From Flavihumibacter profundi (GTDB lineage Bacteria; Bacteroidota; Bacteroidia; Chitinophagales; Chitinophagaceae): a stretch of DNA of 64,000 nucleotides. Position 1 is the stretch's first letter; every line of letters starts with the position of its first letter. The position numbers and the translations under genes are program-made. A model generated the notes under the pieces. It was not told where the DNA came from, made no database searches, and was given only the letters and a program-made list of their open reading frames with translations. Of this stretch, positions 1,551 through 7,006 are shown piece by piece. The DNA is taken from contig NZ_JAIQXE010000002.1 of assembly GCF_020076305.1 (NCBI RefSeq), forward strand, positions 930,001-994,000. The letters are read 5' to 3'.

Positions 1551-3218
1551 ATGCAAGTTATTAAAAGACTGCTGTACATACTCTCTTTATTGGTACCCGT
1601 AGTGGGTTTTTCGCAATCAACCCTTCTTCCGCAAGGATATAAACACCAGCCACTGATGGACAGGCTGGAGATCAGGTTCAGGGACAGTGCCATGTCTTTC
1701 CAGAATTTAAAGCCATTTGACAGGAAATCCTGGGTGGGTGTACTCGAGCGGCTAGATACCACGGCTGTATTTTCGAAGGCAGATGCACATAATATCAACA
1801 GCGCGTTGATGAATAATTCAGAATGGGTAACCGGATCAAAAGAATCCTTCCAGAGCAGGAAGCCTTTTTTGAAAACATTATATATAACAAAGACAGACCT
1901 GGTTCATGTGGATGTCAAGGATTTCTTCCTTACAGTTAACCCTGTTTTTCAGTTCATGGTCGGGAAGGAGTCAGGCACTGATGAAAAGATGTTCCAGAAT
2001 ACAAAGGGGGCTACGGCGAGAGGCTTAATTGCCCATAAGATCGGGTTTGATTTTTACCTGACTGATAACCAGGAGAGGCCGCCCTATTTTGTGAAACAGT
2101 TTGAAGACACTTTTCATGCTGTTCCAGGTAACGGTTTCTATAAAGCATTTAAGGAAACGGCCTACGACTATTTTGATGCAAGGGGATCAGTGTATTTTAA
2201 TGTGACCAAATATATTAATGTGCAGTTTGGTTACGATAAGAATTTTATTGGCGATGGATACCGTAGTTTCTTTTTAAGTGATTTTTCAAGCAATTACCTT
2301 TTCCTCAAACTCAATACGAAAATATGGAAACTGGATTACCAGAATTTGTTTATGGAGTTAACGCCCCAGGAACCTATAAATAATGGCAGTGTGTTACTCG
2401 ATAAAAAATATGCAGCCATGCACCACCTCAGCTGGCAGGCAAACCGATGGCTGAATATCGGGCTGTTTGAATCCATTATTTATGGCCGGGAGAACCATTT
2501 TGAATTTTCCTATCTTAATCCAATTATCTTCCTGCGGTCAATTGAGCAGCAGAATGGCAGCAAGGACAATGCAAATGTGGGATTTGATTTTAAGACCAAT
2601 GTGGCTAAACGCTTTCAGTTTTACGGACAGGTATTGTTTGATGAATTCAAGTTGAGTGAAGTAAAAGGAGGCCAGGGATGGTGGGGAAATAAATGGGCGT
2701 TACAGCTAGGTGGGAAGTATATAGATGCATTTGGAGTGAAGAACCTGGACCTTCAGGGCGAGTTCAATATGGCCAGGCCTTTTACCTATTCCCACAACGA
2801 TTCAGTGTCTAATTACAGCCACTATAACCAGCCATTGGCGCATCCACTGGGTGCGAATTTTCATGAGTTTGTTGGAATTGCCAGGTACCAGCCACATCCA
2901 AAATGGAACATCCAGGGGAAACTGATTGCCTGGAGGCAGGGCCTTGATTCTGCAGGGATTAATTTTGGCAGCAATATATTTCGCCTTTATGACACCCGGC
3001 CAGCAGATTATGGCTGGTCTATTGGTACAGGGAGGAAAGCTACCGGTGTTAATGCCTCTTTATGGATTGGATATGAACTTGCAGAAAATTTATTTATAGA
3101 CGCATCATTGATGGTTCGCAAATATGATGTTCCTGATGATCCCCTGTTAACACGCAACATCACCATGGTTTCCCTTGGATTCCGGATGAATATGTTCAGG
3201 AGAGAGTATGACTATTAA
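1551..3218 (+). CDS. Wzi/RemB-like outer-membrane beta-barrel protein
   Basis: A 555-residue secreted protein with a clear N-terminal signal peptide (MQVIKRLLYILSLLVPVVGF, cleavage probably near FSQS). The rest alternates short hydrophobic and polar stretches rich in Tyr, Phe and Asn, as expected of a large outer-membrane barrel. The segment around YLNPIIFLRSIEQQNGSKDN recalls the central motif of the capsule-assembly protein Wzi and the gliding protein RemB, which is why I use that family name; I have not confirmed it. The gene leads a plus-strand run whose next member begins before its stop codon (11-base overlap if the UbiA gene starts at 3208), so it may be co-transcribed with the polyketide genes. 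A role in surface attachment or export is inference. Confidence 0.6.
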   Translation: MQVIKRLLYILSLLVPVVGFSQSTLLPQGYKHQPLMDRLEIRFRDSAMSFQNLKPFDRKSWVGVLERLDTTAVFSKADAHNINSALMNNSEWVTGSKESFQSRKPFLKTLYITKTDLVHVDVKDFFLTVNPVFQFMVGKESGTDEKMFQNTKGATARGLIAHKIGFDFYLTDNQERPPYFVKQFEDTFHAVPGNGFYKAFKETAYDYFDARGSVYFNVTKYINVQFGYDKNFIGDGYRSFFLSDFSSNYLFLKLNTKIWKLDYQNLFMELTPQEPINNGSVLLDKKYAAMHHLSWQANRWLNIGLFESIIYGRENHFEFSYLNPIIFLRSIEQQNGSKDNANVGFDFKTNVAKRFQFYGQVLFDEFKLSEVKGGQGWWGNKWALQLGGKYIDAFGVKNLDLQGEFNMARPFTYSHNDSVSNYSHYNQPLAHPLGANFHEFVGIARYQPHPKWNIQGKLIAWRQGLDSAGINFGSNIFRLYDTRPADYGWSIGTGRKATGVNASLWIGYELAENLFIDASLMVRKYDVPDDPLLTRNITMVSLGFRMNMFRREYDY

Positions 3219-4098
3219 GTGTAACCGAAATTGTATGCTGAAAAAATCAACCATACAGTTACTGCGCTTTCCATTTGCTTTTTTCCTGCTACCTGTATAT
3301 TTATTTGCTCTTAGCCAGGTTTTGTACACCAATTGGTGGAAAGCTGCTTTGGTCTTTTTTATACTTCATTTACTGGTATATCCTGCGAGTAACGGGTATA
3401 ACAGTTTTATTGACCGGGACGAAAGCCCTGTAGGTGGGATCAGGCATCCCATGCAACCCACCAGGCAACTATTATGGGTAGTGTTAGTAATGGATATAGC
3501 AGCGTTAATACTAAGCCTTTTGGTGAGCTCCTGGTTTACCTTTGGCATCCTTCTTTATATACTTGCTTCGAGGGCCTACAGTAGCAGGGTTACACGGTTA
3601 AAAAAATACCCGGTTTTGGGGTTTTTATTGGTGGTCTTATGCCAGGGCGGACTTGTATTCTGGTTAGTTTATCATGGGGTACATCAGCGGCAGCCGGTTA
3701 TAGTTCCTTTAACCGGTATAATAGCCAGTACCTTATTAATAGCAGGCGCTTATCCTCTAACCCAGGTATACCAGCATGCAGCAGATCAGAAAGACGGAGT
3801 AAGAACCATCAGTATGCTTTTAGGGGTAAAGGGAACATTTAGGTTATCGGCTTTGTTGTTTAATATGGCTTTTGTTGTATTGGGCCTGCATTTTGCGCTT
3901 CAATTGGAGTTGGTGCGGTTTTTTGTCCTGCTCATTTGCTTTTTCCCGGTGTTAATTTATTTTTTGCGATGGGCGAAAAAAGTATGGCAAAACACTGAAG
4001 CCGCCAGTTTCGATAACCTGATGGGCATGAACAAGCTGGCAGCAATATGTTCCAATACCGGTTTTTTGATCTTATTAATATGGAAATTATTTGACTAA
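3208..4098 (+). CDS. UbiA-family membrane prenyltransferase
   Basis: A 296-residue polytopic membrane protein with about eight or nine hydrophobic segments. UbiA-family enzymes attach polyprenyl chains to aromatic acceptors using two Asp-rich motifs that bind Mg-diphosphate. The first is visible as NSFIDRDE (residues 65-72) and the second as DQKDG (193-197), followed by the family-typical RTISMLLG; SRAYSSRVTRLKKYP (121-135) also matches the loop after the first motif. ATG 3208 is preceded by AGGAGAG and overlaps the upstream gene by 11 bases; ATG 3235 (MLKKSTIQ) is a possible alternative. The next gene, a type III polyketide synthase, starts inside this gene's end. Its place among aromatic-polyketide genes suggests that it prenylates a polyketide-derived ring and is not the primary menaquinone enzyme MenA; this is inference. 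Confidence 0.85.
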   Translation: MTIKCNRNCMLKKSTIQLLRFPFAFFLLPVYLFALSQVLYTNWWKAALVFFILHLLVYPASNGYNSFIDRDESPVGGIRHPMQPTRQLLWVVLVMDIAALILSLLVSSWFTFGILLYILASRAYSSRVTRLKKYPVLGFLLVVLCQGGLVFWLVYHGVHQRQPVIVPLTGIIASTLLIAGAYPLTQVYQHAADQKDGVRTISMLLGVKGTFRLSALLFNMAFVVLGLHFALQLELVRFFVLLICFFPVLIYFLRWAKKVWQNTEAASFDNLMGMNKLAAICSNTGFLILLIWKLFD

Positions 4099-5179
4099 GA
4101 TTTTATCAATAGGAACAGCTATCCCAGCTTATCGCCACCGGCAACAGGACATCCTGCAATTTATGCAACGGGTTTATGCCCTTGATTATACTGGTGAAAG
4201 AAAACTAAGGTTTCTCTATCAACATAGTGGTATTGATAGCAGGTATTCAGTACTGCCTGATTACAGCGCACCAATAGCAGAATGGAAATTCTATCCGGCT
4301 ACTGAATCTTTTGAACCCTTTCCTTCATTGGAGTTGCGGATGAGCTGGTACCAGAAATATGCTGCATCACTTTCTGTAGATGCAATCCGTAAATGCCTGG
4401 CAGAGGCAAAGCAAAGTCCCCAGGGTATAACCCACCTGATTACGGTAAGTTGTACAGGGATGAGTGCGCCTGGCCTCGACCTGCAAGTGATGGAGTTAAT
4501 GGAATTGCCGCGTTCCTTAAACAGGAGTTCTATTAATTTTATGGGCTGCTATGCTGCATTGCATGGCCTTAAACAGGCAGATGCCATTTGCCGGTCTGCA
4601 CCGGGCGCAAAAGTTCTGGTCGTTTGTACTGAGCTTTGCACACTGCATTTTCAGAAATCTGCCACTGCGGATAATATCGCCTCATCATTGTTGTTCGGAG
4701 ATGGATCGGCAGCAGTGCTGCTTAGTAATGATGAGCAGCAAAAAGGCCACGCCATCAGGGGATTTTATAGTGAAGTTATTCCCAAGGGAAAGAAAGACAT
4801 GTCCTGGGAGCTGTCATCCTCAGGTTTCCAGATGACATTAAGCGGCTATATTCCGGAACTGATCGCAACCGATTTCTCACCGCTGGTTTCAAGGGCCGTT
4901 AGCGGTTTTGGCCTTCAAATAAATGACATCAGCCAATGGTGTATTCACCCGGGCGGAAAGCGCATATTGCAGGCGGTTGAAAAAAGCCTCGCCTTACCCG
5001 GGCATGCACTTGCTGCAGGGTATGAAGTTTTGAAGCAATACGGAAATATGTCATCACCTACAATTTTGTTTGTGTTGAAGGAAATGCTGGAAATGGGTGC
5101 CAGTGGAAATATGCTGGCTGCAGCATTTGGGCCGGGACTTACGATGGAAACCTGCTGGATGGAGGCAGAGCCGGTATGA
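4091..5179 (+). CDS. Type III polyketide synthase (chalcone synthase-like)
   Basis: Homodimeric ketosynthases of this family condense an acyl-CoA starter with malonyl-CoA units and cyclise the chain to resorcinols, pyrones or phloroglucinols. The 362-residue protein has the full catalytic triad: Cys153 in NFMGCYAALHG, His286 in CIHPGGKR and Asn319 in YGNMSSPT. GDGSAAVLL (about 203-211) and AFGPGLTMET (about 345-354) are further family motifs. The only good start is TTG at 4091, which overlaps the UbiA stop by 8 bases; the next in-frame Met is residue 25, inside the fold. The stop overlaps the methyltransferase start as ATGA. The starter unit cannot be read from the sequence. The methyltransferase and flavoprotein next door recall the srsA-srsB-srsC phenolic-lipid operon of Streptomyces griseus. 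Confidence 0.93.
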   Translation: MTKILSIGTAIPAYRHRQQDILQFMQRVYALDYTGERKLRFLYQHSGIDSRYSVLPDYSAPIAEWKFYPATESFEPFPSLELRMSWYQKYAASLSVDAIRKCLAEAKQSPQGITHLITVSCTGMSAPGLDLQVMELMELPRSLNRSSINFMGCYAALHGLKQADAICRSAPGAKVLVVCTELCTLHFQKSATADNIASSLLFGDGSAAVLLSNDEQQKGHAIRGFYSEVIPKGKKDMSWELSSSGFQMTLSGYIPELIATDFSPLVSRAVSGFGLQINDISQWCIHPGGKRILQAVEKSLALPGHALAAGYEVLKQYGNMSSPTILFVLKEMLEMGASGNMLAAAFGPGLTMETCWMEAEPV

Positions 5180-5874
5180 GCTGGGGCCAGCGTTCATATG
5201 AAAAGGAGCTGCTTGATGGCACTGGGAATTCCTTTGAGGAGATCAGGCAGAACATGGTTGAGTTAAATAATATTAACCATTGGTTAGGCGGTCATAAAAT
5301 AACGATTAACGGGCTTCGTCGGATTGCTTTAAAAAAACAGGTATTGCATGTTTGTGAAATTGGTTGCGGAGGTGGTGATAACCTTGCTGTTATTTACAAC
5401 TGGGCTTTGAAAAACGGGATATCAGTAAAATGCTCCGGAATTGACATTAATGAAGATTGCATCAGTTTTGCCAAGCAGCAGTTTCCGCAGGGAATTTATT
5501 TTACAGGCGATTATAGGAAAGTGCGTTTGCCTGAAATGCCTGATATCGTTTTCTCCTCTTTATTTTGCCACCATTTTTCAGATGATGAAATTGCTGAACA
5601 GCTATCCTGGATGCATGATCATTGCAAAATTGGTTTTTTTATCAATGATTTACACAGGAATGCATTAGCCTATTATTCCATTAAACTATTAACCTGGTTG
5701 TTTTCAAGGTCGCGGTTAGTTAAACACGATGCCCCATTATCAGTCCGGAGAAGTTTTACCCGCAGGGAATGGGAACAGCTTTTCCGGCGTTCTGGCATTG
5801 CCGCCGGAAAGATTCATTGGAAATGGGCTTTCCGATGGCTTATAACCTTTTCAAAGGAGGCACATGAAAATTAA
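5176..5874 (+). CDS. SAM-dependent class I methyltransferase (polyketide cluster)
   Basis: A 232-residue soluble methyltransferase. Motif I is VCEIGCGGGDNLA (residues 59-71), followed by SGIDIN for the acidic residue that binds the SAM ribose, and DIVFSSLFCHHFSD at the position of motif II. The second half, with NDLHRNALAYYSIKLL, resembles small-molecule O- or C-methyltransferases more than rRNA or protein methyltransferases. The start ATG overlaps the stop of the type III polyketide synthase (ATGA), and its own last codons contain AAAGGAGG just before the next gene, so translation of the three genes is probably coupled. In this setting it most likely methylates a hydroxyl or ring carbon of the polyketide product. 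The substrate is inferred from position only. Confidence 0.85.
   Translation: MSWGQRSYEKELLDGTGNSFEEIRQNMVELNNINHWLGGHKITINGLRRIALKKQVLHVCEIGCGGGDNLAVIYNWALKNGISVKCSGIDINEDCISFAKQQFPQGIYFTGDYRKVRLPEMPDIVFSSLFCHHFSDDEIAEQLSWMHDHCKIGFFINDLHRNALAYYSIKLLTWLFSRSRLVKHDAPLSVRRSFTRREWEQLFRRSGIAAGKIHWKWAFRWLITFSKEAHEN
5853..5860 (+). promoter_or_regulatory. Strong Shine-Dalgarno AAAGGAGG before the FAD oxidoreductase start
   Basis: AAAGGAGG lies inside the end of the methyltransferase gene, 3 bases before ATG 5864. Most genes in this window lack a recognisable Shine-Dalgarno sequence, as is usual in Bacteroidota, so a full anti-SD match is unusual. The spacing is shorter than the 5-9 bases usual elsewhere. 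It is also constrained by the codons for SKEA, so chance is possible. Confidence 0.45.
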
Positions 5875-7006
5875 CAATATTGCATATGATGTTGCAGTGG
5901 CGGGCGGTGGACTAGCCGGTCTTGCAGCGGCCATCCAGTTGTCCGGGAAAGGATTTAAAGTAATTCTTTTTGAAAAGAAATTTTATCCTTTTCACAGGGT
6001 TTGCGGCGAATATGTCAGCGAAGAAAGCAGGCCATTCCTGCAAAGCCTGGGAATTTCCCTTGATCAATTAAAACTGCCTTCGATAAGGAAGCTGGTCGTA
6101 AGTGCTCCAGATGGTGAGCTACTGGACGCAGCACTTCAGTCCGGGGGATTTGGTATCAGCAGGTATAGGCTGGATGCATTATTAGCCGGACAGGCAAAGG
6201 CTGCTGGCGTTCATATATTGGAAGGCACCAAAGTACATGATATCCTGTATGAAAAAGGGGCTATGAAAATTTTATCGCAGCATGGTGAAATAAATGCTGC
6301 GGTTGCTATTGGTAGTTTTGGAAAGAGGTCTAACCTTGATGTGCAGTGGAAAAGGGAATTCACTCTGGCGAAGGGAGGAAAGCTGAATAATTTTATTGGT
6401 GTTAAGTACCATATCCGGCTGGATCATCCTCCTGATACCATTGCGTTACATAATTTCGAGGATGGTTATTGCGGCCTTTCACGAATTGAAGACGGGTTAT
6501 CCTGCCTTTGTTATCTAACCACCGCCAATAATCTTGGGCTCAGTAACAATTCCATCGCCCAAATGGAACGCCGGGTACTTTGGAAAAACCCGCATCTGGA
6601 AAAAATATTCAGTGCTGCTGAAATGATCTGGAGCGAGCCTTTGATTATATCCCAGGTTTCTTTTTCAAATAAGCCTTTACTCCACGATCATGTGCTGATG
6701 GCAGGAGACGCAGCTGGAATGATAACGCCATTGTGCGGTAATGGCATGAGCATGGCATTGCATAGCAGTAAGATACTGGCAGGCCATGCAGCCAGGTTTT
6801 TGCGGAATGAAATTTCCAGGGAGGAAATGGAAAAGATGTACCGGGCAGATTGGCGAAAGAATTTCAGCCGGCGGTTATTTGCCGGGAGGTCGATACAGCG
6901 TTTTTTTGGTGATCCGTTACTGTCAAAAATACTGGTCAGGACCGCAAGGATTTTTCCGGGGGTAACCAATTTTTTAGTTCAGCAAACGCATGGCGAACAA
7001 TTTTAA
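5864..7006 (+). CDS. FAD-dependent oxidoreductase, geranylgeranyl reductase / aromatic hydroxylase type
   Basis: A 380-residue flavoprotein of the group that includes geranylgeranyl reductases and para-hydroxybenzoate hydroxylase-like monooxygenases. The FAD-binding Rossmann motif is VAVAGGGLAGLAAA (residues 10-23). FHRVCGEYVS (44-53) and the second FAD motif LMAGDAAGMITPLCGNG (278-294) are intact. It is the last gene of the tight polyketide run and overlaps the methyltransferase by 11 bases. In the comparable Streptomyces srs operon the flavoprotein hydroxylates the alkylresorcinol on the way to a quinone; the same role here is a reasonable guess, but reduction of a prenyl chain added by the UbiA enzyme is equally compatible with the family. 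After the stop there is a 7-base GC-rich inverted repeat (7025-7031 with 7062-7068) with a long loop, and no T tract. Confidence 0.85.
   Translation: MKINNIAYDVAVAGGGLAGLAAAIQLSGKGFKVILFEKKFYPFHRVCGEYVSEESRPFLQSLGISLDQLKLPSIRKLVVSAPDGELLDAALQSGGFGISRYRLDALLAGQAKAAGVHILEGTKVHDILYEKGAMKILSQHGEINAAVAIGSFGKRSNLDVQWKREFTLAKGGKLNNFIGVKYHIRLDHPPDTIALHNFEDGYCGLSRIEDGLSCLCYLTTANNLGLSNNSIAQMERRVLWKNPHLEKIFSAAEMIWSEPLIISQVSFSNKPLLHDHVLMAGDAAGMITPLCGNGMSMALHSSKILAGHAARFLRNEISREEMEKMYRADWRKNFSRRLFAGRSIQRFFGDPLLSKILVRTARIFPGVTNFLVQQTHGEQF

Follow-up and report, generated by a model that had tools for sequence, protein, structure and literature searches.

The window analysed here, a stretch of 64,000 nucleotides of the Flavihumibacter profundi genome (assembly GCF_020076305.1, contig NZ_JAIQXE010000002.1, positions 930,001 to 994,000), carries four successive genes for a UbiA-superfamily membrane enzyme (UbiA), a type III polyketide synthase (T3PKS or PKS), an S-adenosylmethionine (SAM)-dependent methyltransferase (MT) and a flavin adenine dinucleotide (FAD)-dependent oxidoreductase, which will be referred to as FAD enzyme. 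We consider it fairly probable that these genes together form a single operon for the biosynthesis of a modified phenolic lipid. A single pathway is well supported, because the gene order is conserved, the genes co-occur across genomes and their trees run in parallel; the chemistry is what we infer. As the first-pass annotation of this DNA had stated, the four open reading frames (ORFs) lie at 3208-7006 and overlap by 8, 4 and 11 bases; all are on the plus strand (Table 1). The surrounding genome of 4.87 Mb is rated 100% complete, and judged by the synthase the closest named relatives belong to Flavihumibacter (62-71% identity). Judged by most homologues and by the profile match, which begin at the ATG at 3235, the UbiA gene probably starts there rather than at 3208; the gene is therefore probably free of overlap with its upstream neighbour.

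Table 1: Predicted genes of the operon (positions within the window).
Product	Position	Strand	Basis
UbiA-superfamily membrane enzyme	3235..4098 (ORF opens at 3208)	+	PF01040, AlphaFold2/Foldseek, motifs
T3PKS, probable alkylresorcinol (or alkylpyrone) synthase	4091..5179	+	TTG start, Cys153-His286-Asn319
Class I SAM methyltransferase of the PRK06202 kind, probable ring C- or O-methyltransferase	5176..5874	+	profile match, trio homology
FAD-dependent oxidoreductase, geranylgeranyl-reductase/halogenase/hydroxylase superfamily, probable ring hydroxylase by analogy	5864..7006	+	profile, fold

Conservation of the Gene Order

Among 80 named loci that carry a close synthase, most of them Chitinophagaceae according to the record titles, 72 have the order UbiA>PKS>MT>FAD on one strand. 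The scattering of the genes in relatives, which the first-pass annotation had named as evidence against a common pathway, did not occur. Six of the eight exceptions end at a contig edge (L074, L076, L087, L092, L095, and L106). The remaining two (L100 and L103) retain UbiA, PKS and FAD genes without an MT gene, so some lineages may do without methylation. The overlap of UbiA and PKS genes was detected in 53 of the 72 full-order loci; in one of the 72 (L059), the UbiA match and the FAD match are each split in two. As protein identity across loci with conserved order is about 50-70%, the order is kept by more than chance. In other GTDB families the same genes lie together but rearranged, the UbiA gene often being divergent from the synthase gene (L139-L141, L145, and L147-L149), and the same orientation was observed in one locus (L178) of the window's own family; linkage thus outlives rearrangement. 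Another genome of this family (G028) carries UbiA and PKS genes side by side and the FAD gene approximately 328 kb away.

Sampling of 33 loci from seven GTDB families identified the PKS (32 loci), MT (28), FAD (26) and UbiA (26) genes as the broadly shared neighbours, and the next most shared gene was present in eight loci of a single family. Gene-tree distances of the four genes correlate with each other (Spearman 0.64-0.83 over 78 loci).

Co-Occurrence of UbiA and Synthase

Among 147 genomes of the family, a class-A synthase was detected in 66, a UbiA (A1 profile) in 65 and both in 64. Class-A synthases were defined by a score of at least 243 bits, the next match reaching 168 bits; a looser tally of 101 out of 147 takes in FabH-level matches. 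One genome with UbiA and synthase only in fragments (G033) was counted as UbiA-only. The FAD protein was found at E 1e-50 or better in 71 of these genomes.

Across 395 genomes of the phylum, the 26 with a UbiA match of at least 329 bits were identical to the 26 top-scoring synthase genomes (at least 298.9 bits). The UbiA threshold is placed in a broad gap between scores of 329.3 and 159.1 bits. The synthase threshold was set after the ranks had been seen, the next genome, a member of family f24, scoring 293.5 bits, and the agreement is therefore a statement about ranks; moreover, genomes of one family are not independent of each other. In six of the 26 genomes (G215, G287, G298, G306, G330, and G523) the UbiA gene is located on another contig or far off, which argues that the pairing does not result from linkage alone.

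Altogether 139 genomes of the phylum showed a UbiA match, 26 of them strong, 34 of a second tier and 79 weak, the last being read as background UbiA genes. All 34 second-tier genomes (125-159 bits) belong to family f24 and all carry a T3PKS. In the ten f24 genomes read, the UbiA gene lies apart from the synthase gene and encodes the same motif 1 as the operon enzyme (see below). The neighbourhood of this distant UbiA gene (L213-L222) is itself conserved, comprising thioredoxin-like, aminotransferase and aldehyde dehydrogenase genes; no link to the pathway was seen among these neighbours.

Synthases partnered with a UbiA group into a single clade of the synthase tree (SH-aLRT 97). The 43 rows of this clade comprise 35 synthases with UbiA adjacent, six with UbiA elsewhere, one without UbiA (L177) and one from a Psychrobacter plasmid. 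Both this tree and the UbiA tree are quick ones, the latter with long paralogue branches. Synthases of a second, distant class lack a UbiA gene of this type as neighbour, and none of the genomes carrying them ranks with the strong UbiA matches; some loci of this class contain the FAD-MT-PKS trio (L165-L167, L171, L172, and L179-L181). Single stop codons inside the UbiA match were noted in three genomes (G008:C5:98749-99600, G127:C69:87391-88245, and G088:C29:50179-51039).

The UbiA-Family Enzyme

The UbiA protein matched PF01040 with 54.8 bits (cut-off 34.2), and its AlphaFold2 model (pLDDT 95.8, pTM 0.92) was most similar in Foldseek to AfUbiA (4tq4, TM 0.69, E 1.9e-6). Searches by profile retrieved DGGGP synthase, ApUbiA and ChlG as the nearest PDB entries; used as a single sequence, the protein yielded no PDB match at E 1. 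According to the model, the UbiA fold is kept despite altered motifs.

Two intact Asp-rich motifs had been reported in the first-pass annotation, which proved incorrect. In place of NDxxDxxxD the enzyme reads NSxxDxD (N65-S66-x-x-D69-x-D71, numbering from 3208), and in place of DxxxD it reads QxxxD (Q189-x-x-x-D193). None of the 119 non-redundant cluster-type UbiA proteins was canonical, with no N[DQN]xxDxxxD among them; 117 carry NSxxDxD as motif 1 and 116 Y/F-Q-xxx-D as motif 2. The unlinked UbiA group of family f24 shares the altered motifs (motif 1 in 10/10 and motif 2 in 9/10). Residues N65, D69, D71, D193, R130 and K132 were invariant in 31 aligned rows. As judged from the alignments, the metal/diphosphate site is modified by loss of the first Asp of each motif and by a shift of the third Asp of motif 1. 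ChlG, a prenyltransferase, also aligned without the first Asp of motif 2, so the UbiA-family enzyme may be catalytically active.

In a comparison aimed at the respiratory prenyltransferases (MenA/UbiA/MqnP/CtaB), seven NCBIfam models matched the protein at E 0.001, none of them above its cut-off and the best with 37.5 against 212.3. The genome encodes five further UbiA-family proteins, including CtaB and one above the TIGR01475 cut-off, and the operon copy is therefore probably not needed for their tasks. A role of the operon copy as menaquinone or haem enzyme was rejected, given the presence of these paralogues. Outside the operon, two UbiA-type genes of the genome were observed in neighbourhoods of their own: one for a UbiA-superfamily protein without NCBIfam match at 1e-8, which adjoins an M42-type aminopeptidase-like gene (L197:1426-2271), and, in a second UbiA-containing neighbourhood, an EboC-type UbiA-like gene (394.8, cut-off 250) beside a 3-dehydroquinate-synthase-like gene (L196:1351-2238).

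Synthase, Methyltransferase and FAD Enzyme

Consistent with the first-pass annotation, the key motifs of the other three enzymes are intact, each being present in at least 97% of the homologue rows aligned (81 for the synthase, 75 for the MT and 74 for the FAD enzyme). These are C153, H286, N319 and the FGPG loop (A345-F346-G347-P348-G349) of the synthase, E-x-G-x-GGG of the MT, and GGGLAG and GD of the FAD enzyme. The synthase matched Chal_sti_synt_N (PF00195, 97.2 versus 27) and Chal_sti_synt_C (PF02797, 76.8 versus 27). Its residues T122, A126 and C183, conserved in homologues, align with T144, A148 and C205 of PKS18, presumably the tunnel positions of this long-acyl enzyme, which makes a long acyl starter plausible. 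Mycobacterial PKS18 was among its best solved relatives by sequence. The best NCBIfam model for the synthase was DpgA (164.9, cut-off 425). The MT matched Methyltransf_25 (35.6 versus 27) and resembles PRK06202 (126 bits, cut-off 243).

Pfam FAD families matched the FAD enzyme above their curated cut-offs. The folds nearest to its AlphaFold2 model (pLDDT 90.2) were the flavin halogenases ChlB4, PltA, Mpy16 and Bmp2; a geranylgeranyl-reductase-like protein and hydroxylases including 3-hydroxybenzoate 6-hydroxylase followed further down the list. The best NCBIfam model, the geranylgeranyl-reductase family TIGR02032, remained below its cut-off (93.6 versus 158.8). WxWxIP, a motif of flavin-dependent halogenases, was present in none of 165 FAD ORFs, a set that includes duplicates and partial ORFs, and assignment as a halogenase by motif was therefore rejected. 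Ring hydroxylation is therefore a proposal by analogy with hierridin and not a finding.

Trio Homologues and Known Systems

The hierridin cluster hidABC of cyanobacteria was reportedly described by Costa et al. in 2019. Together with the MT-FAD-T3PKS trio of planctomycetes it probably fits the window better than the srs operon of Streptomyces griseus, which the first-pass annotation had chosen for comparison; the window trio is homologous to a planctomycete trio. By description the srs operon likewise combines a T3PKS, an MT and an FAD hydroxylase. However, SrsB is a membrane-bound methyltransferase of the ICMT type, in contrast to the class I enzyme of the window, and srs is not known to contain a UbiA gene. 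In plants, the olivetolic acid/cannabigerolic acid route forms a type III polyketide ring which is then modified by a UbiA-type aromatic prenyltransferase; this route uses plant enzymes without such an operon, and no sequence relation to it is claimed.

The srs operon is also mentioned in the part of PMC8086630 available to us. There, T3PKS, MT and oxidoreductase genes of hierridin clusters are adjacent, with the orders hidA>B>C and hidC>A>B, and by description hidC>hidA>hidB corresponds to PKS>MT>FAD of the window. In contrast to the window, UbiA is as a rule absent from the clusters covered by that part of the source, and a Raphidiopsis cluster with a prenyltransferase is called unique. Hierridin B is a hydroxylated product. 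In the literature consulted, hierridins are the only fully decorated trio product named. On the fragment cloned with losA, a UbiA gene is located three genes away (PMC7587189, available part).

The operon of Planctomycetota contains the same three enzyme kinds as the window (PMC10896814, available part); it differs in its order, MT-FAD-PKS, no UbiA was seen in it, and the window proteins are distant from it. The trio of Paludisphaera (L202) shares 37% (PKS), 26% (MT, E 2e-21) and 27% (FAD, E 4e-21) identity with the window proteins. Strains tested in the sections of PMC10896814 at hand were Gimesia, Rhodopirellula, Stieleria and others, with Paludisphaera not among them. According to these sections, synthases of three strains that carry the operon, or a version of it with two genes, yielded pentadecyl- and/or heptadecylresorcinols, as did that of 'S. 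ferox', whereas for two synthases outside such operons no product was detected. Addition of the Gimesia maris MT and oxidoreductase led to one extra methyl group, 'probably' on carbon, the role of the oxidoreductase being left unresolved there.

Eight of 110 matching plasmid records were read. Seven contain PKS, MT and FAD homologues together (Deinococcus, Roseomonas, Psychrobacter, Paludisphaera, Methylobacterium, Novosphingobium, and Paenibacillus), the FAD homologue of Deinococcus being recognized by profile only (24 bits); the Rhizobium record contains a PKS homologue alone. No UbiA was found in the stretches read of these eight records, and a search of plasmid records with the UbiA protein gave no match at 1e-6. 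The T3PKS of Psychrobacter urativorans plasmid 5 (L201, 5995-8818), with FAD and MT genes on the other strand, falls inside the Bacteroidota UbiA-partnered clade, which suggests transfer between phyla. Taking the loci read together with the cyanobacterial clusters (PMC8086630, available part), the trio occurs in at least six phyla: Bacteroidota, Deinococcota, Pseudomonadota, Planctomycetota, Bacillota and Cyanobacteria.

Proposed Pathway and Alternatives

By analogy with these systems, the most likely product would be a C-methylated, prenylated and hydroxylated alkylresorcinol. The T3PKS would extend a long fatty acyl starter by three malonyl-CoA to a 5-alkylresorcinol, as do the synthases of planctomycete trios (PMC10896814, available part). 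The MT would methylate the ring, more likely on carbon, as suggested by the trio of G. maris (same source). Hydroxylation of the ring by the FAD enzyme, modelled on hierridin B, would lead to a hydroquinone- or quinone-type nucleus, and the UbiA-family enzyme, in view of its fold and its restriction to one synthase clade, would prenylate the ring within the membrane. The order of the steps is not fixed in this proposal. Of the prenylated phenolic-lipid or quinone pathway put forward in the first-pass annotation, the notion of one pathway is upheld and a prenylated phenolic lipid is still the most economical reading, but the non-canonical UbiA motifs count against it.

Several observations weigh against the proposal. 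Two of the 147 family genomes (G062 and G069) possess a clade synthase without UbiA match, the second-tier UbiA is missing from 11 of the 45 f24 genomes that have a T3PKS, and no UbiA accompanies the clade synthase of Psychrobacter in the 13 kb read. No fifth gene, and hence no prenyl diphosphate synthase, was broadly shared among the 33 sampled loci. With canonical motifs in 0/119 relatives, prenyl transfer cannot be assumed. Pyrone and resorcinol formation are not separable by sequence here, and the role of the FAD enzyme is unsettled even in the tested planctomycete trio, the folds nearest to the model including halogenases besides hydroxylases and reductases. Operon, conservation, pairing of UbiA with the clade, folds and motifs are direct results; the product we infer.

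The four genes might serve one pathway in which ring prenylation is not the task of the UbiA-family protein; it would instead transfer another group, catalyse a cyclisation, or act on the membrane-embedded phenolic lipid by handling or flipping it. We regard this as rather unlikely, though worth considering: the Asp replacements and the shift recur in nearly all relatives including the unlinked group, no NCBIfam UbiA subfamily comes near its cut-off, and Foldseek weakly lists a membrane phosphoribosyltransferase of similar fold (8j8k, E 1.3e-3), but the six invariant residues, the alignment of ChlG and the best PDB profile matches argue for prenyl transfer. That UbiA is a bystander held by operon structure and serving menaquinone or haem synthesis is strongly disfavoured. 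UbiA-family enzymes are common, with six in this genome; nevertheless, the other paralogues fit the housekeeping roles, no menaquinone or haem model scored above its cut-off, and strong UbiA matches track the synthase clade and not genomes at large, even where the UbiA gene lies elsewhere.

The ring itself might be an alkylpyrone or another polyketide that the remaining enzymes decorate. Type III enzymes switch products easily, the pyrone maker PKS18 is among the closest solved relatives, and DpgA as best model is far below its cut-off. We nevertheless think this unlikely, as the MT and FAD enzyme were judged to suit a resorcinol better. In addition, alkylresorcinols were formed by the synthases of each of the four tested strains carrying the trio or a variant of it, whereas no product was detected for two trio-less synthases (PMC10896814, available part). 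It is more conceivable, though still doubtful, that the FAD enzyme reduces the prenyl chain like a geranylgeranyl reductase or halogenates the product instead of hydroxylating the ring, as its best NCBIfam model and its top folds would suggest. Trios without UbiA carry the same FAD family, however, so the enzyme need not act on a prenyl chain, and the missing WxWxIP motif speaks against a halogenase; in addition, 3-hydroxybenzoate 6-hydroxylase is found among the folds, too.

No product of this quartet in Bacteroidota, nor any paper on T3PKS products of this phylum, was found in the literature searched, subscription papers being mostly outside it. That three of the four genes belong to a described and partly tested set had been overlooked in the first-pass annotation. 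The new part is the consistent addition of a UbiA enzyme with an unusual active site. Throughout a whole synthase clade this enzyme is added, the pairing being near-perfect in the genomes sampled; this predicts a defined, testable lipid in many Chitinophagaceae and directs attention to a UbiA subfamily whose active site is altered and for which no curated NCBIfam model scores above cut-off. Trios with and without UbiA offer a clean comparison for the role of the lipid. As a speculation to which we give little credence at present, many Chitinophagaceae and other Bacteroidota might make an undescribed membrane redox lipid, a methylated hydroquinone with a long alkyl and a prenyl tail whose ring derives from fatty acid and malonate instead of chorismate; prenylation would be the work of a new UbiA subfamily whose diphosphate site has been rebuilt, and the lipid would act beside menaquinone as electron carrier or lipid antioxidant.

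Neighbouring Genes

Genes flanking the quartet were rejected as members of the operon. The downstream CoA-binding and RNase H-like genes are common only within family f1 among the 33 sampled loci, and the upstream gene (1551-3218) adjoins only in Flavihumibacter-like loci. Its product of 555 amino acids showed no Pfam or NCBIfam match and appears by reading to be of outer-membrane type. The gene is paired with a dihydroorotase gene in several loci; in L043 and L068, it lies beside the dihydroorotase gene and is 1.2 and 2.9 kb, respectively, away from the operon.

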